Assembly (NCBI RefSeq): GCF_026967795.1 | Contig: NZ_JAPVBH010000003.1 | Location: 496,001 to 560,000, forward strand | DNA: 64,000 bases | Direction: 5' to 3' | From: Modestobacter sp. VKM Ac-2986 | GTDB lineage: Bacteria > Actinomycetota > Actinomycetes > Mycobacteriales > Geodermatophilaceae | Shown here: piece by piece, positions 42,267 to 52,794 of the stretch | Layout: each line of letters starts with the position of its first letter | Numbering within the stretch: the stretch's first letter is position 1 | The notes under the pieces: generated by a model | Seen by the model: only the letters and a program-made list of their open reading frames with translations | Databases searched by the model: none | What the model was told of the DNA's origin: nothing | Translations under genes and position numbers: made by a program

Positions 42267-43040
42267 TCAGGGGTCGAGTCGGCCGATCACGGCGGTGCCG
42301 TCGAGGTCGTCGTCGGTGACCACCCGCGCGGTGAGACCGGCGGCGGCGACCAGGTCCTGCGTCCCCGGCGCCTGCCGGCGGCTGGTCTCGATCAGCAGCG
42401 ACCCGCCGGGCGCCAGCCAGCGCCGGGCCCCCGCGGCGACCCGGCGGTGGACGTCGAGCCCGTCGGCGCCGCCGTCCAGCGCCGTCCGCGCCTCGTGGTC
42501 GCGGGCCTCGGGGGGCATCAGCGCGATCGCGCCGGTCGGCACGTAGGGCGCGTTGACCACCAGCACGTCGACGCGGCCGGCGAGCGCGGCGGGCAGCGGC
42601 GCGAACAGGTCGCCCTCGTGCACCGCGCCCCGCCCGGCCAGGTTGCGCCGGGCGCAGCGGACCGCGGCCGGGTCGACGTCCGCGGCGTGCAGCTCGACGC
42701 GCCCCAGCGCGGTGGCGATCGCCGCCCCGACCGCGCCGACGCCGCAGCACAGGTCCAGGACGACGGCGCCGGGCCGGGCCAGCTGCACCGCCGAGCGCAC
42801 CAGCAGCTCGGTGCGCCGCCGCGGCACGAAGACGCCGGGCTCGACGGCGAACCGCTGACCGCAGAACTCCGCCCACCCGAGCACCTGCTCCAGCGGCTCC
42901 CCGGCGACCCGCCGCGCGACCCACCCGTCGAGCACGGCGGCGCTCGGTGCGGCGGCCAGCAGCAGCCCGGCCTCGTCCTCGGCGAACACGCACCCGGCGG
43001 CGCGCAGCCGGGCGACGACGACCGGATCGGGTGGACTCAT
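42267..43040 (-). CDS. HemK/PrmC-like SAM methyltransferase
   Basis: 257 residues. EQVLGWAEFCGQRFAVEPGVFVPRRRTELLV is the PrmC-type N-terminal hallmark. DLCCGVGAVGAAI is the SAM loop, and the catalytic NPPY motif appears as NAPYVP. This indicates a protein- or small-molecule-glutamine-type methyltransferase. The A for P change is seen in the actinobacterial paralogues rather than in the true PrmC, so peptide release factor methylation is not certain. Divergent from the ECF sigma gene. Confidence 0.87.
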   Translation of the reverse strand: MSPPDPVVVARLRAAGCVFAEDEAGLLLAAAPSAAVLDGWVARRVAGEPLEQVLGWAEFCGQRFAVEPGVFVPRRRTELLVRSAVQLARPGAVVLDLCCGVGAVGAAIATALGRVELHAADVDPAAVRCARRNLAGRGAVHEGDLFAPLPAALAGRVDVLVVNAPYVPTGAIALMPPEARDHEARTALDGGADGLDVHRRVAAGARRWLAPGGSLLIETSRRQAPGTQDLVAAAGLTARVVTDDDLDGTAVIGRLDP

Positions 43041-43117
43041 CGCCGCCGAGTGTGCCGCCTTCCTCGCGGAACCGTTCCGGACCCCTACAGTGCGGCGACG
43101 ACAGCGGGAGGACGGGG

Positions 43118-43870
43118 ATGGACCGGCGGACCGACGACTTCACGGCCTTCGTCGCCGACTGCGAGCAGCAGCTGCGCGGCACCGCACTGCTGCTGACCGG
43201 CGACCCGGGGCAGGCCGACGACCTGGTGGTGGCCGCACTCGCCCGCACCCACCGTCGCTGGCGCCGCCTCGACTCCCCCGCCGAGGCGCTGGAGGACACC
43301 CGCGCGGCCCTCGTCGCGGCGGTGCTCGGCCGCACCCGGCTGCCGGCGTCCGGCGGCTCGATCGGCACCCTGTCCGGCCCGGACGACGGCCTGCACGACG
43401 GGCTGTACGACGGTCCGGACGGCGACCTGCACGGCGGTGACCAGCTCGATCCCGGCGACCGGCGCTGGCTGACGGCACTGGCCGACCTCGAGCCGACGGC
43501 CCGGGTGGTCGTCGTCCTCCGGCTGGTCGAGGGCCAGGACGAGGAGTCGGTGGCCACGCTGCTGGGCCGCTCGCCGCAGGAGGTGGCCGACGCCCTCGAC
43601 GCCGCCGTCGAGACGCTGGGCGGCCTGCTCGACGCCGAGCCCGAACCGGCTCAGGCCGCCGCACCGGCTGCGGCACCGGCACCGGCACCGGCCGGCGCCT
43701 GGACGGCCGCACCGCAGCCGACCGGTGACCTGGACGCCGTCTTCCGCCGTCCGGGCGTCCCGGCACCTCCGGGACCGGTGCCAGCCCCGGCACCGGTCAC
43801 CGCCCCGGCCGGGGCCGCGCCGGCGGACGACGGCGGCGACCCGTGGGCCATCTACCGGCGGCCGTCGTGA
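43118..43870 (+). CDS. ECF sigma factor, SigE-like, with low-complexity C-terminal tail
   Basis: 250 residues; ATG 43118 behind GGGAGGACGGGG. Region 2 is at about 8-75 (FTAFVADCEQQLRGTALLLTGDPGQADDLVVAALART). A linker holds DG-rich repeats (about 90-110). Region 4 follows (ALADLEPTARVVVVLRLVEGQDEESVATLLGRSPQEVADAL, about 115-160). After 170 comes an 80-residue alanine/proline tail. It contains two similar short motifs, AVFRRPG and AIYRRPS, the second at the very end. Such a tail is unusual and may be a binding site for a regulator. Its TGA overlaps the first of four membrane-protein genes. Confidence 0.88.
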   Translation: MDRRTDDFTAFVADCEQQLRGTALLLTGDPGQADDLVVAALARTHRRWRRLDSPAEALEDTRAALVAAVLGRTRLPASGGSIGTLSGPDDGLHDGLYDGPDGDLHGGDQLDPGDRRWLTALADLEPTARVVVVLRLVEGQDEESVATLLGRSPQEVADALDAAVETLGGLLDAEPEPAQAAAPAAAPAPAPAGAWTAAPQPTGDLDAVFRRPGVPAPPGPVPAPAPVTAPAGAAPADDGGDPWAIYRRPS

Positions 43871-44901
43871 CCGGCCCCGAGGCCCCCGAGGTCGCGGCGC
43901 GGCTGCGGCAGCTCGCGGCCCGGGTGCCCACCGCTCCGGTCGACGGGACGGCGGACACCGCCGGCCGGGTCCTCGAGGTGGGCCGGCACCGGCAGCAGCG
44001 CGTGGTGCGCTGGGTCGCCGCCGGCGTGGCCGTCGTCGTCCTGGGCGCCGCGGCGACCCTCGCCCGGCCGGACGTCACCCCGGTGGCGGCGGCCGCACCG
44101 ACCGCCACCCGGACGGCCCCCACGCCGCCGGAGGTCTACGAGCAGCCGCCGCGCGGGTCGCTCGCCGACGACGAGGCGTTCCTCGCGCAGGCGGCGGTGC
44201 TGCCCTGGTCGACGCCGCTGGACCCCGCCACGGGCGGGGCCCCGGAGATCGAGCTGGACACCCGCCGGGTCGTCTACGCCGCCGACGTCCCGGGCGGGCA
44301 CCGCTGGGCGCTGGTGATGGCGCGCTGGCGCCACCAGTGGGCGGTCACCTGGTTCTCCGGACCACGCGGCGCCGCGCCCACCGAGCTGACCGAGGCCCAC
44401 CCCGCGGTCCCGTGGTCCGGCCGCGGGCCGCTGGCGCTGATGGACGCCTCGGCCCCCCGCGGCCCGCTCCTGGTGCTCGCCGAGCCGGGCGCCGCCGCCG
44501 AGTACTCCCCCAGCCTCGACCGCGCCCCCGACGGCCGCCTGGTCCGCGACTTCGACCCGCTCCCGGTGGTGGACGGCGCCCTGCTCGGCATGGTGACGAC
44601 GCCGGTCACCTGGGACGCCGGCGAGGCGTACGTGCTGCGCGACACGGCGCGGAACCAGGTGCTGGAGGTGCTCTACACCGGGTCCCCGGAGTGGATGACC
44701 TGGTACGGGTCCCTCGACGGCCCACCCGACGAGGCGGTGCTGGCGGCCTGCCTGACCGGGCTCGGGTTCGACGTCGACGACGGCCCGGGCGAGCAGGACC
44801 TGAGCTACGGCATGACCCTGACCGAGGGGGAGAGCAGCGCCGAGAGCGCGGCGCGGGAGAAGTCGGCGGCCGACTGCCACGTCCAGGCCAGCCGCCCGTG
44901 A
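43867..44901 (+). CDS. membrane-anchored protein, paralogue 1 of 4
   Basis: 344 residues from GTG 43867, overlapping the sigma gene stop (GTGA). Layout: about 50 cytosolic residues, one membrane helix (VRWVAAGVAVVVLGAAATLA), a proline/threonine linker, then an external domain of about 265 residues. The domain has the shared marks: PPRGSLADDEAF, DTRRVVYAADVPGGHRWALVM, AEYSPSLDRAPDG and VDGALLG. Two cysteines near the end (AACL and ADCH) could form a disulfide. This resembles the plan of a transmembrane anti-sigma factor or sensor, but no zinc-finger anti-sigma motif is present. No family is recognised. Confidence 0.88.
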   Translation: MTGPEAPEVAARLRQLAARVPTAPVDGTADTAGRVLEVGRHRQQRVVRWVAAGVAVVVLGAAATLARPDVTPVAAAAPTATRTAPTPPEVYEQPPRGSLADDEAFLAQAAVLPWSTPLDPATGGAPEIELDTRRVVYAADVPGGHRWALVMARWRHQWAVTWFSGPRGAAPTELTEAHPAVPWSGRGPLALMDASAPRGPLLVLAEPGAAAEYSPSLDRAPDGRLVRDFDPLPVVDGALLGMVTTPVTWDAGEAYVLRDTARNQVLEVLYTGSPEWMTWYGSLDGPPDEAVLAACLTGLGFDVDDGPGEQDLSYGMTLTEGESSAESAAREKSAADCHVQASRP

Positions 44902-45998
44902 CCGACGTCGGGCAGGACGTGGGCGCCCGGCTGACCCGGCTGGCCCGGCAGGCCCACCCCCCGGACGGCGGCAGCACCGTCGACCGCGTCCTGGACGTGG
45001 CGCGCTCCCGCCGGCTGCGCACCCAGCGCGGGGTCGCGGCCGCCGTCGCCGTGCTGGTGCTGGGCACCACCGCGACGCTCGCCCGGCCGGACGCGGCCCC
45101 CACCGTCCAGGCGGCCCCGGCCGACGCCTCGGCCACGCCGTCCGCCACCCGGCCGGCCGCCCCGTCCTCCCGGCCGCCCGCGCCACCGCCGGAGGTCTAC
45201 GAGCAGCCGCCGCGCGGGTCGCTGGCCGGCGACCCGGAGTTCCTGGCCGGGGTCGCCGCGCTGCCCTGGTCACCGGCGATGGACCTCGAGAACGGCGTCG
45301 CGGCGGAGGTCGAGCCGGACACCCGCCGGGTGCTGTACGCCGCCGACGTCCCCGGCGGTCACCGGTGGGCCGTGGTCATGGCGCGGTCGCACCAGTCGTG
45401 GGCGGTGAACTGGTTCACCGGGCCGGCCGGCGCCGACCCGGCGGGCATGACCGAGGCGTCCTACCCCAGCAGCTGGTCCCCCACCGAGCCGCTGGCGCTC
45501 ATGGACGCCTCCACCGAGGCTGTGCCGCTCGTGGTGTTCGGCGACCCCGGCATCGGCTACGAGTACTCGCCCAGCCTCGACCGGGCGCCCGACGGCAGCC
45601 TCGTCCGCGAGTTCCAGCCGCTCCCGGTGGTCGACGGCGTGCCCCTGGGGGTCGTGCCCAGGCCGGTCGTCTGGGGCGCCGGCGCACTCCGCCGGTCCAC
45701 CGGGGAGGACCGCTCCACGGACGACGACCGGACCCCCGGGGACGGCTGGTCCCCGGGCGGGGACTTCCGCTACGTCGGGGCCGCGCCGTGGGAGAGCTGG
45801 TACGGGGAGGCCGCCGGTCCACCGGACATGGCGGTGCTGGTGCCCTGCCTGACCGCGCTCGGCTACGACGTGACCGTCGGTCCGGGCGAGAGCGAGTACG
45901 GCTGGAGCGACCCGACGACGGTCGAGCGCAGCAGCACCGAGCAGGCGGTGCGGGAGAAGGCGACCGCGGACTGCCAGAACGCAGCCAGCGGTGGGTGA
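44898..45998 (+). CDS. membrane-anchored protein, paralogue 2 of 4
   Basis: 366 residues from GTG 44898 (GTGA overlap with paralogue 1). The cytosolic part contains ARLTRLARQAHPPDGGSTVDRVLDVARSRRLR, clearly homologous to that of paralogue 3. Then come one membrane helix (VAAAVAVLVLGTTATLA), a longer proline/serine linker and the same outer domain (PPRGSLAGDPEF, DTRRVLYAADVPGGHRWAVVM, YEYSPSLDRAPDGSLVREF). An acidic insertion of about 25 residues (GEDRSTDDDRTPGDG region) is unique to this copy. The Cys pair is VPCL and ADCQ. Confidence 0.88.
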   Translation: MTDVGQDVGARLTRLARQAHPPDGGSTVDRVLDVARSRRLRTQRGVAAAVAVLVLGTTATLARPDAAPTVQAAPADASATPSATRPAAPSSRPPAPPPEVYEQPPRGSLAGDPEFLAGVAALPWSPAMDLENGVAAEVEPDTRRVLYAADVPGGHRWAVVMARSHQSWAVNWFTGPAGADPAGMTEASYPSSWSPTEPLALMDASTEAVPLVVFGDPGIGYEYSPSLDRAPDGSLVREFQPLPVVDGVPLGVVPRPVVWGAGALRRSTGEDRSTDDDRTPGDGWSPGGDFRYVGAAPWESWYGEAAGPPDMAVLVPCLTALGYDVTVGPGESEYGWSDPTTVERSSTEQAVREKATADCQNAASGG

Positions 45999-46025
45999 GC
46001 GGCGCCCGCTGCGTCGGGAGCCCGG

Positions 46026-47048
46026 GTGACCGACGCCGAGCAGGACGTGCGCGCCCGGCTCACCCGGCTGGCCCGCCAGGCCCGCTCCCCGGAGGACGCC
46101 GGCACCCTCGACCGCGTCCTGGACGTGGCCCGCTCCCGCCGGCTGCGCGCCCTGTGCTGGCTCGCGGCCGCCGTCGCTGTCCTGGTGCTGGGCACCACGG
46201 CGACGCTCGCCCGGCCGGACCCGGTCCCCGCCGTCCAGGCCGCCCCCGCCACCCGGACCGGTCCCCCGCCACCGGCGGTGTACGACCAGCCCCCGCGTGG
46301 GTCGCTCGCCGGTGACCCCGCGCTCGTGGCCGAGCTGGCGGCGCTGCCCTGGTCGGCGCCGCCCAGCGGCAGTGGGTACTCCCGCCCCTTCGACCCCGCC
46401 ACCCGCCGGGTCGTCTACGCCGCCGACGTCCCGGGTGGGCACCGCTGGGCCGTGGTGATGGCCGGCAACGGGTCCCAGTGGGTGCTGAACTGGTTCGCCG
46501 GGCCGAGCGGGGCCGCACCGGCGGACCTGACCGAGGCCTTCGGGCCGGTGCAGGTCTCGGCCGCCGACCCGGTGGCGCTGATGGACGTCTCCGCGGACAC
46601 CGGGCCGCTCGTGGTGCTCACCGACCCCGGGGTGACCGCCGAGTACTCCGCCACCCTCGACCGGGCCCCCGACGGCAGCCTGGTCCGCGACGTGGTGACC
46701 CTGCCCGAGGTCGACGGCGTGCCCCTGGGCCTCGTGCGCGGACCGGTCGCCTACGGCCCCGGCACGTCCCCGGAGCTGCACGTGCGCCGGGACGGGGCGC
46801 GCACCTCGGTGGACCTCCTCCTGACGACCGGCACCCCGCCGTGGGCCAGGACCCAGTTCCCCACGAGTCCCCCCGACCGGGCCGCGGTCGCCGAGTGCCT
46901 CGTCGCGAACGGCTTCACCGTCGAGGCGGCACCGCCGAGCGCGGGGGTGTACTACGAGGACCCGCGGACCGGCGACCTCTCCAGCGCCGAGCAGGCCGAC
47001 CGCGACCGGACGAGCGAGGACTGCTTCCTCGGCGCCGTCCCGGAGTGA
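46026..47048 (+). CDS. membrane-anchored protein, paralogue 3 of 4
   Basis: 340 residues from GTG 46026, 27 nt after paralogue 2. Same plan: ARLTRLARQARSPEDAG start, helix LAAAVAVLVLGTTATLA, linker and outer domain with PPRGSLAGDPAL, ATRRVVYAADVPGGHRWAVVM and AEYSATLDRAPDGSLVRD. The Cys pair AECL and SEDC is kept. It has no insertion. It is very close to paralogue 2 in the N-terminal half, so the two probably arose by recent duplication. Confidence 0.88.
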   Translation: MTDAEQDVRARLTRLARQARSPEDAGTLDRVLDVARSRRLRALCWLAAAVAVLVLGTTATLARPDPVPAVQAAPATRTGPPPPAVYDQPPRGSLAGDPALVAELAALPWSAPPSGSGYSRPFDPATRRVVYAADVPGGHRWAVVMAGNGSQWVLNWFAGPSGAAPADLTEAFGPVQVSAADPVALMDVSADTGPLVVLTDPGVTAEYSATLDRAPDGSLVRDVVTLPEVDGVPLGLVRGPVAYGPGTSPELHVRRDGARTSVDLLLTTGTPPWARTQFPTSPPDRAAVAECLVANGFTVEAAPPSAGVYYEDPRTGDLSSAEQADRDRTSEDCFLGAVPE

Positions 47049-47100
47049 GGCCGCCGCGCCCCCGGGGACCGGGCATCCTGGGAGCCGGAGAGGGGGCCGG

Positions 47101-48129
47101 ATGACCGACGTCGAGCAGGACCTGCAGGACCGGCTGACCCGGCTCGCCCGGCACGCGCCCTCCCGCGGTGACACCGCCGCGCACGTCCTGGCCCTGCGCA
47201 GCCGGCGCCGCCGGGGCCGTGCCGCGCAGGTCGCCGGTGCGGCCACGGTCGCCCTCGCCGTCGTCCTGGCCGTCGTGCCCGGGCGCCCGGCGCACCCGCC
47301 GCCGCCCGTCGTCACCACCGAGGTGGTGACCGGGTACACCGGCCCCTCGCTCTACGACGTCCCCACCCGCGGGTCGCTGGCCGGGGACGCGGCGTTCGTC
47401 GCCGGGGTGCAGGCCATCGAGTGGGCCAGCCCGCCGAACGCGGCGCTGGGCGTGCTGTCGCCGCCGGCCGACACCCGCCGGGTGCTCTTCGCCGGCGACG
47501 TCCCCGGCGGGCACCGCTGGGCGCTGGTCATGGGCCGGGTCGGCGACGAGCTGCGGACCGCCTGGTTCGCCGGCCGCACCGGCTCCCCGCCCGGGCGGCT
47601 GACGTTGTGGCTGGGCACCGGGGAGGCCAGGCCCGACGTGCCGATCGCCCTGCAGGACGCCGGTGCCGCGACCGGGCCGCTGGTGGTGGTCGGGATGCCC
47701 GGCGACCGGGTCGAGTACTCCCCCGGCCAGGACCGCGACGCCGCGGGCCGGCTGGTCCGGTCCTACGCCGAGCTGCCCGTGGTGGACGGGGTGTCGCTCG
47801 GGGAGGTGAGCACCCCGCTGGTCGAGTCCGCCGCCATCGCGATCGCCTACCGGGACGGCCGGGTGGTGGCCGCCGGGGCGCCGCGGACGCTCCACATGCC
47901 ACTGCGCGGGGTGCCGCTGCACCCGGACCCGGACGCCGCCTACTGGCTGCGGCTGCGGGACTGCCTGACGCCGCAGGGCTTCCGGGTGACCGTGGCGCCC
48001 TCGGGCCGGGACCTCAGCTGGACCGGCGGCCCGGTCACCGGACCCGACGGGAGCGAGCTCAGCAGCGCGGAGCGTGCCCAGAACGCCGCGGTCTTCGACC
48101 GCTGCGCCGAGGACGTCCGGCAGGGCTGA
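47101..48129 (+). CDS. membrane-anchored protein, paralogue 4 of 4
   Basis: 342 residues from ATG 47101 with GGAGAGGGGG upstream, 52 nt after paralogue 3. It is the most diverged copy: helix AAQVAGAATVALAVVLAVVPG, domain with PTRGSLAGDAAF, DTRRVLFAGDVPGGHRWALVM, VEYSPGQDRDAAG and VDGVSLGE. It lacks the ARPD after the helix. The Cys pair is RDCL and FDRC. Its own ribosome-binding site suggests it can be made without coupling. Last gene of the unit; no strong hairpin follows. Confidence 0.87.
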   Translation: MTDVEQDLQDRLTRLARHAPSRGDTAAHVLALRSRRRRGRAAQVAGAATVALAVVLAVVPGRPAHPPPPVVTTEVVTGYTGPSLYDVPTRGSLAGDAAFVAGVQAIEWASPPNAALGVLSPPADTRRVLFAGDVPGGHRWALVMGRVGDELRTAWFAGRTGSPPGRLTLWLGTGEARPDVPIALQDAGAATGPLVVVGMPGDRVEYSPGQDRDAAGRLVRSYAELPVVDGVSLGEVSTPLVESAAIAIAYRDGRVVAAGAPRTLHMPLRGVPLHPDPDAAYWLRLRDCLTPQGFRVTVAPSGRDLSWTGGPVTGPDGSELSSAERAQNAAVFDRCAEDVRQG

Positions 48130-48452
48130 CCCCGCCGGGCCCGCCGCTGGGCTCAGGGCTGCTGGTGGACCGCGTCCGGGCGGGCTCCTCGGCCGGGACG
48201 GGACGGTCGGCCGACGCCCGCCGGGCGTCACCCCTCCCCTCACTGCGGTCTTCCCTTCAGCCCGACTCGGCGCCAAGTTGGGGATAACGGTCGACGTCAC
48301 GCAGGCCGGACAGCAGCACGTCCAAGGCCCGGTCACGACCTACGACGAGGTCGGTCGCGGGTACCCGGGCGCCCAGCCCGAGGAGGGCACGGCCCGACCC
48401 GCACGGGAGCGGGCGCGGGCGGCGGCGGGGTCGGCAGCCGGCGCGGTGGTGG
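48130..48452. other. 323-bp gap without a supported gene
   Basis: Short frames on both strands lack start sites and the local codon bias. An AT-richer stretch (about 48270-48300) with TTGGGGATAACG might hold a promoter, but nothing is convincing. The GntR gene ends at 48453 from the other side. Confidence 0.5.
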
Positions 48453-49166
48453 TCACGGAACCCTCCGGGGCGAGTCGCGGTGGACGGTGCGCAGCTGGGA
48501 CTCCGAGTCGTGCAGGTAGGCGTCGAGCTGCTCGGCCGCCCGCGCGGTCTCCCCGGCGGCCAGCAGGTCCAGCAGGGCGCGGTTGCGCTGGACGTAGGGC
48601 TCGTGCAGCGGCCGCGGGTCCGCCACGGTCTGGAACAGCAGCCGCAGCTCGGCGAACAGCCGCGCCGCCGTCTCGTCCAGCCGGCGGCTGCGGCCCAGCG
48701 CCACCAGGGCGAGGTGGAAGCGCATGTTCGCCGTCCCGACGGCCGGCCAGTCACCGCGCCGGGCGGCGTCCTCGGCGGCGGCGACCGCGTCGTGCAGCGG
48801 CCGCAGCCGCACGGCGTCGGCGCCCTCCAGGCGCGCGACGACGCCGCACTCGATGGCCCGCCGCGCCCGGTACAGGTCGACCAGGTCGTCCTCGTCGAGC
48901 TCGGGGACGAAGACGCCGCGGTGCAGCCGGTGCACCAGCAGGCCCTCGTGGGTGAGCAGCCGGAACGCCTCACGCAGGGTGTTCCGGGAGACGTGCAGCA
49001 CCTCGACCAGCTGCTCCTCGCTCAGCCGGGTGCCCGGTGGCAGGTCGCCCTCGATGACCCGGGCGCGCAGCAGCTCGGCGACCCGCTCGGCGGTGCTGGA
49101 CCGGTCGAAGCTGCGCACCTCGTGGGCGACGGTGCGCAACCAGCCGGAGTCCGCGGCGTCGGTCAT
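48453..49166 (-). CDS. GntR/FadR-family regulator (FCD type)
   Basis: 237 residues. The winged helix occupies about 25-95: RVAELLRARVIEGDLPPGTRLSEEQLVEVLHVSRNTLREAFRLLTHEGL. The C-terminal helical FCD domain has DLYRARRAIECGVVARL, NMRFHLALVALGRSRRLDE and a late HxxLLDLLAAGE-like segment, with the metal-binding Asp/His set. It is divergent from the NRAMP-pxp operon across 157 bp that contains a FadR-type operator, so it very likely represses that operon and is relieved by oxoproline or a related acid. Confidence 0.9.
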   Translation of the reverse strand: MTDAADSGWLRTVAHEVRSFDRSSTAERVAELLRARVIEGDLPPGTRLSEEQLVEVLHVSRNTLREAFRLLTHEGLLVHRLHRGVFVPELDEDDLVDLYRARRAIECGVVARLEGADAVRLRPLHDAVAAAEDAARRGDWPAVGTANMRFHLALVALGRSRRLDETAARLFAELRLLFQTVADPRPLHEPYVQRNRALLDLLAAGETARAAEQLDAYLHDSESQLRTVHRDSPRRVP

Positions 49167-49230
49167 GCGGCCATCCTGCCCGGTCGGCGTGTGTCGTCGC
49201 AGTTAATTGTCCGGCCATCCCCTTGTCGGA

Positions 49231-49241
49231 TTGTTCAACAA
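49231..49241. promoter_or_regulatory. FadR-type operator TTGTTCAACAA
   Basis: Perfect dyad matching the FadR-subfamily consensus TNGTNNNACNA, in the divergent gap between the regulator and the pxp operon, 83 nt before the transporter start. A weaker TTGTCCGGCCA lies at 49207-49217. Confidence 0.7.
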
Positions 49242-49323
49242 CTCCCTAGGTTCACCCGGCAAGGGGCACAGCCCCGACGGACGCCGCCCGCGCGGCACCG
49301 ACCGACCCGACCGGGGAGCACCC

Positions 49324-50565
49324 ATGGCACACGAGGCGCACGGCACGGACAGCGCGGCACCGACCGGCGGGCGACTGGCGACCAGCACCCGGTCGACCCT
49401 GCTGGGCGCGATGTTCCTGATGGCCACCTCGGCGATCGGGCCGGGCTTCATCACCCAGACCACCACGTTCACCGTGCGGCTGGGCGCGGCGTTCGCCTTC
49501 GCGATCGTCATCTCGATCCTGGTCGACATCGCGCTGCAGCTCAACGTCTGGCGGGTGATCGGCGTCAGCGGCCGCCGCGCCCAGGAGCTGGGCAACCTGG
49601 TCCTCCCGGGCATGGGCTGGGTGATGGCCGGCTTCCTGCTGATCGGCGGGCTGGTGTTCAACATCGGCAACGTCGCCGGCTCCGGGCTGGGCCTGGACGC
49701 GATGCTCGGCCTGGACCCCAAGCTCGGCGGCGCGCTGTCGGCGCTGATCGCCATCGGCATCTTCCTGAGCAAGAAGGCCGGGCTGGCCGTCGACCGGATC
49801 GTCGTCGTCCTGGGCATCGCGATGATCGCGCTGACCACCTACATCGCGATCACCTCCGGGCCCCCCGTCGGGCAGGCGCTGAGGAACGTCGTCCTGCCCG
49901 AGCAGGTCGACGTGCTGGCGATCACCACGCTCGTCGGCGGCACGATCGGCGGCTACATCGTCTACGCCGGCGCGCACCGGCTGCTGGACTCCGGCGTCTC
50001 CGGCGCCGCCCACGTCCGGGACATCACCCGCGGCTCGGTCACCGGCATCCTGCTCACCGCCGTCATGCGGGTCGTGCTCTTCCTGGCCATCCTCGGCGTC
50101 GTCAGCGGCGGCGCCGCGCTCGACCCGGCCAACCAGGCCGCCTCGGCGTTCCAGCAGGCCGCCGGTGAGATCGGGCTGCGCGTGTTCGGCATCGTGCTGT
50201 GGGCCGCGGCGATCACCAGCGTCATCGGGGCCAGCTACACCTCGGTGTCCTTCGTGACCTCCCGGACGCAGACCTCCGACCGCACCCGCACGCTGCTCGT
50301 CGTCGGCTTCATCGCGGTCACCACCGCGGCCTACCTGCTCATCGGCACCGCGCCGACCACGCTGCTGGTGTTCGCCGGGGCGTTCAACGGGCTGCTGCTG
50401 CCCATCGGCATCGCCGTCCTGCTCTGGGTGGCGACCCGGCGGGCCGACCTGCTCAACGGCTACCGCTACCCGCGCTGGCTGCTGGTCGTCGGCTGGGTCG
50501 CCTGGCTGCTGACGCTGGTGCTGGCCGTCCGGTCGGTCCAGCCGGTCATCGACCTGTTCCGCTGA
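49324..50565 (+). CDS. NRAMP-like membrane transporter (YcsG type)
   Basis: 413 residues from ATG 49324 (GGGGAGCACCC upstream); an earlier ATG at 49207 is less likely because it lies over the operator. About 11 membrane segments. [28 protein letters not shown] replaces the DPGN metal motif of true NRAMP proteins; it is altered here, so metal transport is doubtful. The protein starts the pxpABC operon, as ycsG does beside the Bacillus PxpA gene. It probably imports 5-oxoproline or a related organic acid. Confidence 0.87.
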
Positions 50566-50591
50566 CCGGCCGAGCGGGCAAGGAGAGCGTC

Positions 50592-51347
50592 ATGGACCTC
50601 AACAGCGACCTCGGCGAGGGCTTCGGCCAGTGGACCCTCGGCGACGACGACGCGCTGCTCGGCGTGGTCACCAGCGCCAACGTCGCCTGCGGCTTCCACG
50701 CCAGTGACGCGTCGATCATGCGGCGGGTGTGCGACAAGGCCGTGGAGTCCGGCGTCGCGATCGGCGCGCAGGTGGGCTACCGCGACCTGCCCGGCTTCGG
50801 CCGCCGGTTCATCGACATGGAGCCCGAGGCGCTCACCGCCGACGTGGTCTACCAGGTCGGCGCGCTGCAGGCCTTCGCCCGGATCGCCGGCGACCGGGTG
50901 CGCTACGTCAAGCCGCACGGCGCCCTCTACAACGCGATCGTCCACCACGAGGAGCAGGCCGCCGCCGTGGTGGCCGCGGTCGTCGCGCTCGACCCGACGC
51001 TGCCGGTGCTCGGGCTCCCGGGCTCGGCCTGGCTGAGGCTGGCCGCCGAGGCCGGGCTGACCGTGGTGCACGAGGCGTTCGCCGACCGCGCCTACACACC
51101 CGAGGGCACCCTGGTGTCCCGCCGGCTGCCCGGCGCGGTGTTGCACGACCCGGCGGAGATCGCCGCGCGCTGCGTGGCCATGGCCGCCGGCGAGCCGGTC
51201 CGGGACGTCGAGGGCGGCGAGCTGGTGCTCACGCCCGGGTCGATCTGCGTGCACGGCGACACCCCGGGCGCGGTGGGGATCGCCCGGCAGGTGCGGGCGG
51301 CGCTGACCGCGGCCGGGGTCGCCCTGACCCCGTTCGCGCCCGCCTGA
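50592..51347 (+). CDS. pxpA: 5-oxoprolinase subunit A (LamB/YcsF family)
   Basis: 251 residues. ATG 50592 with AGGAGAGCG upstream. [55 protein letters not shown] and [10 protein letters not shown] are the canonical PxpA motifs. With PxpB and PxpC it hydrolyses 5-oxoproline to glutamate using ATP, salvaging a damage product. The stop overlaps pxpB (TGATG). Confidence 0.95.
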
Positions 51348-51961
51348 TGCGCCTGCTGCCCAGCGGCAGCGCCGCGCTGCTGGTCGAGGTCGACGGGCTG
51401 GACGACGTGCTGGCGCTGTACGCCGCGCTGACCGACGCCCCACCCGAGGGCGTCGTCGACATCGTGCCCGCCGGCCGCACGGTGCTGCTGGTGACCGACC
51501 CGGCGCGCACCACCCTCGACGCGGTGGCCGCCGCGGTGCGGACGACGACCCCGCGCCCCGGCGACCGGCGGTCCGGGGACGCCGTCGAGCTGCCGGTGCA
51601 CTACGACGGCGCCGACCTCGCCGACGCCGCCGGGCTGCTGGGGCTCACGCCCGAGGAGCTGGTCCAGCGGCACACCGGGGCACCGTGGACCGTGGCCTTC
51701 TGCGGCTTCGCGCCCGGGTTCGGCTACCTCGTCCAGCCCGGCACGCAGTGGGACGTGCCGCGCCGGGCGACCCCGCGGACCAAGGTGCCGCCGGGCTCGG
51801 TGGCGCTGGCCGGGGAGTTCAGCGGCGTCTACCCGCGGGAGTCCCCCGGAGGTTGGCAGCTCATCGGCCGCACCGACGTCGCCGTCTTCGACCTGGCCCG
51901 CGACCCGGCGGCGCTGCTGCGGCCGGGCACCCGGGTGCGCTTCGTCGAGGTGGGCGCATGA
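51347..51961 (+). CDS. pxpB: 5-oxoprolinase subunit B (KipI family)
   Basis: 204 residues from ATG 51347. The KipI/allophanate hydrolase subunit 1 signature is complete: RHTGAPWTVAFCGFAPGFGYL, PRRATPRTKVPPGSVALAGEFSGVYPRESPGGW. It pairs with PxpC, and the start of pxpC overlaps its stop (ATGA). The short N-terminal domain LLPSGSAALLVEV is normal for the family. Confidence 0.95.
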   Translation: MRLLPSGSAALLVEVDGLDDVLALYAALTDAPPEGVVDIVPAGRTVLLVTDPARTTLDAVAAAVRTTTPRPGDRRSGDAVELPVHYDGADLADAAGLLGLTPEELVQRHTGAPWTVAFCGFAPGFGYLVQPGTQWDVPRRATPRTKVPPGSVALAGEFSGVYPRESPGGWQLIGRTDVAVFDLARDPAALLRPGTRVRFVEVGA

Positions 51962-52794
51962 GCCTGACCGTGCTGGCCCCGGGCCCGCTGACCACCGTGC
52001 AGGACGAGGGGCGACCCGGCCAGGCGGCGCTGGGCATCGGCCGTTCCGGCGTCGCCGACCGCGCCTCGGCCCGGCTGGCCAACCGGCTGGTGGGCAACCC
52101 ACCGGACGCCGCGGTGCTGGAGGTGACCCTCGGCGGGCTGGCCGTCCGCGCCGAGGCCGACCTGCTCGTGGTCACCACCGGCGCCCGCTGCCCCGGCTCC
52201 CCGCACGACGCCCCGACCCTGCTGCGCGCCGGTACGGAGCTGCGGCTGGGCGCCCCCGCCGCGGGGCTGCGCACCTACCTCGCGGTGCGCGGCGGGATCG
52301 CCGTCCCGCCGGTGCTGGGCTCGCGCGCCACCGACGTCCTGGCCGGGCTGGGTCCGGCCGTCGTCGCCGCCGGGGACGTGCTGCCGGTCGGTGCGCCGGC
52401 CGCGCCGCTGCCCGGGGTCGACCTCGCCGCGGTACCCGACCCGGCCGCCGGCGACCTGACCGTCACGGTGCTGCCCGGCCCGCGCGCGGACTGGTTCGGC
52501 GAGGCCGGTTGGGCCGCGCTGACCGGGCAGCGGTGGACGGTCACCAGCGAGAGCAACCGGGTCGGCCTGCGGCTGGACGGCGTCCCGCTGGAGCGGCTGC
52601 GCGCCGGCGAGCTGCCCAGCGAGGGCATGGTCCGCGGCGCGCTGCAGGTGCCGCCGTCGGGCACGCCGGTGCTCTTCCTCGCCGACCACCCGGTCACCGG
52701 CGGCTACCCGGTGATCGGCTACGTGACCGACGCCGACGTCGACCGGTGCGCCCAGCTGCGCCCCGGCCAGGGCCTGCGGCTGCGCGCCGGCTGA
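51958..52794 (+). CDS. pxpC: 5-oxoprolinase subunit C (KipA family)
   Basis: 278 residues from ATG 51958. TVLAPGPLTTVQDEGRPG is the start of the KipA/biotin-dependent carboxyltransferase-like family. Next come LEVTLGGLAVRAEAD, YLAVRGGIAVPPVLGSRATD, SNRVGLRLDG and LADHPVTGGYPVIGYV. Forms the active complex with PxpA and PxpB. The operon GntR-NRAMP-PxpA-PxpB-PxpC is thereby complete. A hairpin terminator follows 28 nt later. Confidence 0.95.
   Translation: MSLTVLAPGPLTTVQDEGRPGQAALGIGRSGVADRASARLANRLVGNPPDAAVLEVTLGGLAVRAEADLLVVTTGARCPGSPHDAPTLLRAGTELRLGAPAAGLRTYLAVRGGIAVPPVLGSRATDVLAGLGPAVVAAGDVLPVGAPAAPLPGVDLAAVPDPAAGDLTVTVLPGPRADWFGEAGWAALTGQRWTVTSESNRVGLRLDGVPLERLRAGELPSEGMVRGALQVPPSGTPVLFLADHPVTGGYPVIGYVTDADVDRCAQLRPGQGLRLRAG

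Follow-up and report, generated by a model that had tools for sequence, protein, structure and literature searches.

A degenerate SigE-type sigma-like protein and its putative single-pass membrane partners in Modestobacter: a candidate signalling unit of sigma-factor descent

What might a protein of sigma-factor descent do once it has lost the residues of a promoter reader and is encoded at the head of an array of membrane protein genes? Sigma factors are generally regarded as promoter readers, and the question is raised by a locus of Modestobacter sp. VKM Ac-2986, situated in a stretch of 64,000 nucleotides (nt) of contig NZ_JAPVBH010000003.1 (positions 496,001 to 560,000 of the forward strand; hereafter the window). 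At 43118-48129 of the window lie five head-to-tail genes, one encoding a SigE-like protein of the extracytoplasmic function (ECF) type, followed by four encoding mutually related membrane proteins with a single helix each. According to our analysis, the chances are about even that this operon specifies a sigma-derived cytosolic signalling protein that would have lost its role in transcription start, together with amplified single-pass membrane partners. The five genes are as follows.

43118..43870, plus strand: degenerate SigE-family sigma-like protein ("pseudo-sigma"), 250 amino acids, assigned from profile scores, residue and charge comparison, and the tree
43867..44901, plus strand: membrane protein 1, 344 amino acids, with cytosolic segment, one helix and outer domain; overlaps the sigma-like gene by GTGA
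44898..45998, plus strand: membrane protein 2, 366 amino acids; GTGA overlap with gene 1
46026..47048, plus strand: membrane protein 3, 340 amino acids
47101..48129, plus strand: membrane protein 4, 342 amino acids, on a separate branch of the tree, grouping with L067, L065 and L066

These coordinates bear out the tandem paralogues of the original prediction, with 39-55% identity to the first copy (copy 2, 55%; copy 3, 52%; copy 4, 39%). The GTGA overlaps that it described are seen as well, being 4 nt long between the sigma-like gene and membrane gene 1 and between genes 1 and 2, and the further gaps measure 27 nt (genes 2 and 3) and 52 nt (genes 3 and 4). Beside one common upstream gene, the sigma-like gene and at least one membrane gene recur in 11 other congeneric genomes, and the pairing is therefore more than chance. 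The nearest named proteins are those of Modestobacter. These loci (L054-L064) form, with the window, the set of 12 that we call window type. The 4-nt overlap between sigma-like and membrane gene is kept in 11/11 loci measured, the window included.

Residues lost from the sigma-like protein

The SigE family (TIGR02983) is the best NCBIfam match of the sigma-like protein, at 75.8 bits (E 3.4e-21) and thus below the curated cut-off of 141.55, and common descent with this family is also seen in a tree of 103 sigma domains. Pfam sigma regions 2 and 4 are detectable, both below cut-off. No zinc finger was matched in the protein, which is here the product of a separate gene, and a sequence search of solved structures returned nothing at E 0.01. 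Three segments of the protein carry the comparison with intact sigma factors.

43133..43270, plus strand: retained region 2.1-2.2 (residues 6-51), with core columns conserved and the invariant region 2.2 glutamine replaced by V38
43295..43345, plus strand: degenerate equivalent of region 2.3-2.4 (DTRAALVAAVLGRTRLP), from column and charge comparison
43568..43624, plus strand: degenerate equivalent of region 4.2, the -35 helix (RSPQEVADALDAAVETLGG), net charge -3

The 12 window-type proteins were compared by column with 50 intact sigma factors encoded as separate genes (class I), using the numbering of row L133. Among the 55 columns conserved at 85% or more in the intact rows, 27 are kept in the window type (at 92-100%; 21 of the 27 hydrophobic), 14 are wholly absent and 14 intermediate. 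Absent from 12/12 window-type rows are R27, Q44, P63, Y66, V67, S77, P116, D130, Q150, R153, G154 and R159, and absent from all readable rows are W78 (11/11) and E86 (10/10). The glutamine of region 2.2 (Q44), which we take to be the equivalent of sigma70 Q406, a contact of the beta-prime clamp, makes up 100% of letters at its position in the 50 class I and 30 canonical rows, and is V or L in 12/12 window-type rows. Several other lost columns fall in the segments that read the -10 and -35 elements, the arginines of the -35 helix among them.

The charge of these segments changes as well (134 rows, minus 12 partial and 16 duplicate ones). For the region 4.2 helix, net charge ranges from -3 to -1 in the window type (mean -2.42, n=12), from 0 to +5 in separately encoded relatives (mean +3.33, n=51; the 0 is that of the intermediate L067) and from +2 to +6 in canonical rows (n=27). 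Region 2.4 has a mean net charge of +0.17 in the window type, +4.96 in separate relatives and +4.26 in canonical rows. The WRR/WRL motif, a less telling marker, is present in 43/51 separate, 15/27 canonical and 0/12 window-type rows. With a score of about half the family cut-off and with its promoter- and core-facing residues gone, the window-type protein is, judged by its sequence, a pseudo-sigma and not plausible as a sigma factor any more, and the working SigE-type factor that had been proposed for this locus is not upheld.

We consider it unlikely that the protein is a divergent but working sigma factor, which the four membrane proteins would release, as anti-sigma factors, on envelope signals. 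The layout with its overlapping genes is ECF-like, regions 2 and 4 are still detectable below cut-off in the window, and region 4 is barely over the Pfam cut-off in the orthologue P0007 (26.1 vs 25.7 bits), while precomputed Pfam annotation gives sigma region 4 for 9/29 window-type orthologues. Basic positions of region 2.3-2.4 are also partly kept, R68 in 10/12 and R80 in 7/11 rows. Yet every window-type row read is without the glutamine of region 2.2 and without most of the conserved residues of the -10 and -35 segments, and the -35 helix is acidic. A sequence block ahead of the operon bears on the same question.

43068..43093, plus strand: GGAAC-N13-TACAGTGC, a conserved block that resembles a promoter and precedes the operon; a candidate regulatory element

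The block contains GGAAC and could be a promoter recognised by the protein itself. However, as the pattern GGAAC-N13-TAC[AG]GTGC it has nine of its ten exact matches in 23 congeneric genomes at this locus and occurs once in this genome, and thus no regulon is seen at that stringency (looser forms were not tried). The pattern shortened by one base has a single match in the window and none in 100 shuffles, and the window-type genomes G017, G019 and G022 are without the exact form. A scan of 42900-48500 found neither a sigma-70-type promoter nor an intrinsic terminator.

A second alternative takes its model from PhyR of the alphaproteobacterial general stress response, whose sigma-like domain is of ECF type with degenerate promoter and core contacts, according to the passages on it in PMC8103513. 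A mimic of this kind, the closest mechanism in print, would bind the anti-sigma segments and thereby release another, genuine ECF sigma factor of the same cell, which we regard as quite improbable here. The ECF-type domain of the window protein is likewise degenerate and has a weak match to the Pfam PhyR_sigma-like family (19.9 bits, cut-off 27), and at least one SigE-family protein over cut-off, a possible client, is present in 9/12 window-type genomes. Unlike PhyR, the window protein has no receiver domain matched in a Pfam scan, which returned sigma-type matches only, is encoded beside membrane proteins, and is without a SigE client over cut-off in its own genome, where 0/20 TIGR02983 matches reach that score. 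None is over the SigE cut-off in window-type genomes G007 and G016 either, so that the obvious client is missing in 3/12. Intact ECF sigma factors of types other than SigE are present in this genome and may be clients instead.

Selection, the C-terminal tail and linkage to the outer domain

The sigma-like gene is not a plain pseudogene, as its region 2.1-2.2 is under purifying selection. Pooled ratios of nonsynonymous to synonymous change (dN/dS), obtained by a Nei-Gojobori script from nine of the 12 window-type rows (without L059, L062 and L063), are 0.19 in region 2.1-2.2, compared with 0.09-0.25 in five sets of intact sigma factors, 0.44 in region 2.3-2.4 (intact sets 0.15-0.44) and 0.56 in sigma4 (intact sets 0.12-0.29). 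The first of these values set against the last indicates that one part of the protein is held while another is relaxed. Beyond sigma4 extends a tail with a recurring motif.

43838..43867, plus strand: C-terminal motif DPWAIYRRPS, the RR codons of which overlap the likely ribosome-binding site of the next gene
43727..43753, plus strand: inner copy of the tail motif, DLDAVFRRP, from a motif search

The repeated xFRRP/xYRRP motif of this alanine/proline tail, to which the original prediction had drawn attention, is real and conserved: the C-terminus reads DPxA[IA]YRRP plus one residue in 29/29 window-type proteins, the window's own included, and 26/29 have at least one further copy. The inner copies lie outside the ribosome-binding-site overlap. 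A DNA pattern for the motif, covering CGN arginine codons only, revealed no partner elsewhere, both genome matches lying inside the sigma-like gene itself.

Each of the four membrane proteins starts with some 40 cytosolic residues, the last of them forming an arginine-rich stretch, followed by a single hydrophobic segment (inside residues 39-68), a linker and an outer domain. A cytosolic N-terminal module and one helix are thus encoded directly behind a SigE-type gene, as expected of an anti-sigma-like protein. The one-helix layout, the block DVPGGHRWA and the pair of C-terminal cysteines are seen in all four, as predicted, and the two cysteine columns hold C in 83/87 and 86/87 aligned relatives. 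The outer domain had gone unrecognised in the earlier reading, and no Pfam or NCBIfam family matched it; among 15 members scanned, one had a weak hit to the viral REV family of Pfam (E 0.015) that was taken as chance. Solved structures searched with the outer-domain alignment gave nothing at E 1, and a larger alignment gave two chance-level matches at E up to 10. The domain is found mainly in Geodermatophilaceae, with relatives in Micromonosporaceae.

The link between this outer domain and SigE-type genes is strong. Named genomes scanned with two outer-domain peptide patterns yielded 73 loci, in 48 of which the 800 nt upstream of the outer domain contain a SigE-type domain in the same orientation, and in 16 of which such a domain shares the open frame of the outer domain; in L164 the fused sigma domain is weak (22.4 bits). 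Two loci, L160 and L168, begin at a contig end, and hence 71 have readable upstream DNA, 65 of them with a sigma domain upstream or fused. Homologues situated mostly away from sigma genes had been named in the original prediction as the finding that would break the regulatory link, and the 65/71 speak for the link. In the 40 Modestobacter loci (L054-L093), 42/47 outer domains have a detected sigma domain upstream or fused.

Within the Geodermatophilaceae, 85/112 genomes have a match, and in a sample of the phylum matches occur in 29/296 genomes (the window's own included), the others being mostly confined to the first 100 residues. In 16 of 19 such loci examined elsewhere in the phylum, a SigE-family domain precedes the match in the same orientation, and in 15 of the 16 its end is no more than about 25 nt away, which suggests that the cytosolic-plus-helix half is a general SigE-linked module carrying different outer domains. 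A broad search with the sigma-like protein itself (matches in 45/59 genomes) mixed orthologues with ordinary SigE proteins and was used for coordinates only.

These data also bear on a third alternative, namely that the sigma-like gene is a decaying remnant and the membrane proteins act alone, for example as envelope proteins. The relaxed dN/dS of sigma4 could mean ongoing decay, the orthologue L062 has a frame change, and 6/71 readable named loci are without a detected sigma domain, five of them behind an exonuclease gene and with short N-termini, the sixth being L192. Against this stand the constraint on region 2.1-2.2, which equals that of intact sigma factors, and the fact that all 11 window-type loci without a break have retained the open frame, the overlap and the C-terminal motif, the last being found in all 29 proteins. 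We therefore hold decay to be a rather doubtful explanation.

The five outer-domain genes behind an exonuclease gene (L142, L143, L145, L147 and L158, from Blastococcus and Geodermatophilus) directly follow a gene with DNA_pol_A_exo1 and HRDC domains, presumably RNase D-like. Two further outer-domain genes are present outside the window in the genome studied here, at G000:C8:35310-35963 (L005) and G000:C9:456346-457170 (L036). Each has what appears to be a degenerate SigE-type domain fused in front, clear in L036, and in L005/L078 read by eye and missed by the profile. Also encoded in this genome, at G000:C1:446598-447068 (L034), is a short SigE-like protein that has no outer domain; its sigma domain looks degenerate and a hydrophobic helix lies at its C-terminus.

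Origin of the clade and the fourfold array

In the tree of sigma domains, the 12 window-type rows form one group (100/99), and a wider clade (100/99) unites them with L067 and 14 fused rows. The sigma of L067, a locus of a draft genome, is half degenerate, still has Q44 and R27, and is encoded beside the same upstream gene as in the window type. In 13 fused proteins, the sigma domain continues into cytosolic module, helix and outer domain, and such chains point to a physical partnership between the sigma domain and the membrane protein. Intact pairs of sigma factor and membrane protein occur in Modestobacter, Geodermatophilus and Micromonosporaceae. At one window-type locus (L062:2348-4120, genome G008), a frame change in the tail joins the sigma-like and membrane genes into a single open frame, the result of an assembly error or of a recent event. 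This fusion was dropped as proof of coupling, as the fused reading frame is not the one that encodes the tail motif.

Within the sequence stretches taken around each window-type locus, the membrane gene is present in four copies in the window, three in G010, three in G007, two in G018 (the second having a modified start) and one in the other eight. The four genes in a row that the original prediction emphasised are thus present here, but the fourfold array is a lineage-specific, local elaboration and not the defining feature of the unit. In G018, the start of the second outer-domain gene (L061:4571-5539) resembles that of the sigma-like gene, as if from recombination.

The third copies of G007 and G010 are the orthologues of membrane gene 4, which falls with L067, L065 and L066 (100/98) and apart from copies 1-3; L065 and L066 are partners of intact SigE-type sigma factors. 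One recent tandem duplication giving rise to all four genes was accordingly rejected, copy 4 being on a different branch. Recombination among the copies is suggested by several patterns. In G007 the first copy resembles window copy 1 in its 5' part but window copy 2 in its outer part, a combination that deletion by recombination between two copies would produce, and membrane protein 2 of the window has a 5' part like copy 3 and an outer part nearest to that G007 copy. Between window copies 2 and 3, identity is 86-90% in the first ~270 columns of the alignment and drops to at most 79% beyond them, and their proportion of synonymous differences (pS) is 0.08 in the cytosolic part vs 0.38 in the outer part.

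Pairwise dN/dS of the outer parts is 0.89-0.93 among copies 1-3 and 0.29-0.71 in eight orthologous or near-orthologous pairs. We read these values, at the level of sequence, as outer domains that appear to have diverged on a common cytosolic half, relaxed constraint on the outer domains being the alternative reading. Diverged outer domains joined to similar 5' halves suggest that several sensors probably feed one pseudo-sigma.

The surroundings of the operon are shared as well. One upstream gene, which we take to be prmC-like, is common to 11/11 other window-type loci, and the downstream genes are the same in 9/11, not being seen in the stretches L061 and L062. Downstream genes in the window (48453-52794) appear to encode a GntR-type regulator, a transporter resembling NRAMP and, as an operon, 5-oxoprolinase-type functions (pxpA/B/C).

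A proposed sigma-derived subunit and its known counterparts

The nearest known arrangement is that of the SigE-family ECF factors of TIGR02983 with a membrane anti-sigma-like protein encoded downstream, with which the operon shares gene order, the 4-nt overlap and the cytosolic-plus-helix module. It differs from these pairs in a sigma protein without core and promoter residues, in having four partners, and in the proline/alanine tail with DPxAIYRRP. Membrane-tethered ECF sigma factors are known in groups ECF48, ECF52 and ECF53 (e.g. SCO4117), as far as the relevant passages of PMC8999054 and PMC5826349 describe them. The fused relatives (class III) similarly unite sigma domain, one helix and outer domain in one chain, but have a different outer domain and a partly degenerate sigma, and the window genes are separate; a scan of the fused proteins P0115, P0120, P0126 and P0147 at E 0.1 gave no zinc-finger match. 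Class III also resembles IutY (ECF243) in carrying sigma and membrane partner in one chain. IutY is a sigma fused to its anti-sigma in the iron cell-surface signalling of Pseudomonas putida and yields an active sigma after proteolysis, according to the section of PMC8999054 that treats it. A literature search, within the terms used, turned up no work devoted to a SigE-type sigma factor that has become degenerate or to a Modestobacter ECF system. We regard the operon as a variation on the pairing of ECF sigma and anti-sigma factors, and there is a real chance that it represents a new class of receptor subunit.

If the operon does encode a sigma-derived signalling protein, its history may have been as follows. 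It would have begun with a SigE-type sigma factor of the ordinary kind, paired with a single anti-sigma-like protein in the membrane. Within one Geodermatophilaceae clade, promoter-reading residues of the sigma domain were lost, and in the window's branch the conserved region 2.2 glutamine too, while the domain would have kept its fold and presumably the face that holds the cytosolic segment of the partner. Sigma domain and partner would have become a single polypeptide in some branches and stayed separate in that of the window, where the sigma-like protein has a proline/alanine tail ending in DPxAIYRRP and the partner gene would have been copied. The 5' halves of copies 2 and 3 probably stayed alike through recombination while the outer domains diverged. 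We posit that the cytosolic segments hold the sigma-like protein as an anti-sigma factor holds an ECF sigma, that polymerase is not led to promoters, and that several outer domains may report to one cytosolic subunit whose tail would pass the signal to some partner.

Several observations weigh against this reading. The place of the clade beside intact, outer-domain-linked sigma factors of Modestobacter and Geodermatophilus is weak (84/62), and degenerate sequences and long branches attract each other in trees, which may have helped the grouping. The fused relatives have mean net charges of -0.31 in region 4.2 and +3.62 in region 2.4 (n=16), and 68% of them keep the region 2.2 glutamine; being less degenerate, they leave the term pseudo-sigma firm for the window type only. 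The cytosolic parts of the eight orthologous or near-orthologous pairs have dN/dS of 0.20-1.34 and are thus not strongly constrained, and the likely ribosome-binding site within the last RR codons explains part of the conservation of the tail motif.

More tentatively, the findings may point to a radiation of pseudo-sigma proteins out of transcription in the Geodermatophilaceae, in which they would serve as the cytosolic half of receptors, either fused or shared by an array of sensors, with DPxAIYRRP as a multivalent docking tail for output. This wider reading is possible, though we would not expect it to hold in full.

PhyR is the one precedent that the literature search turned up for an ECF domain that gave up promoter reading and became a signalling part. 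If the operon works as we propose, it would be a second such case, from another phylum and tied to membrane sensors. In these genomes, a gene may be labelled 'sigma24' or 'sigma factor' although its product does not act on DNA, and such labels call for caution. The presence of intact, intermediate (L067) and degenerate members in one family would allow the path from transcription factor to signalling adaptor to be traced step by step.

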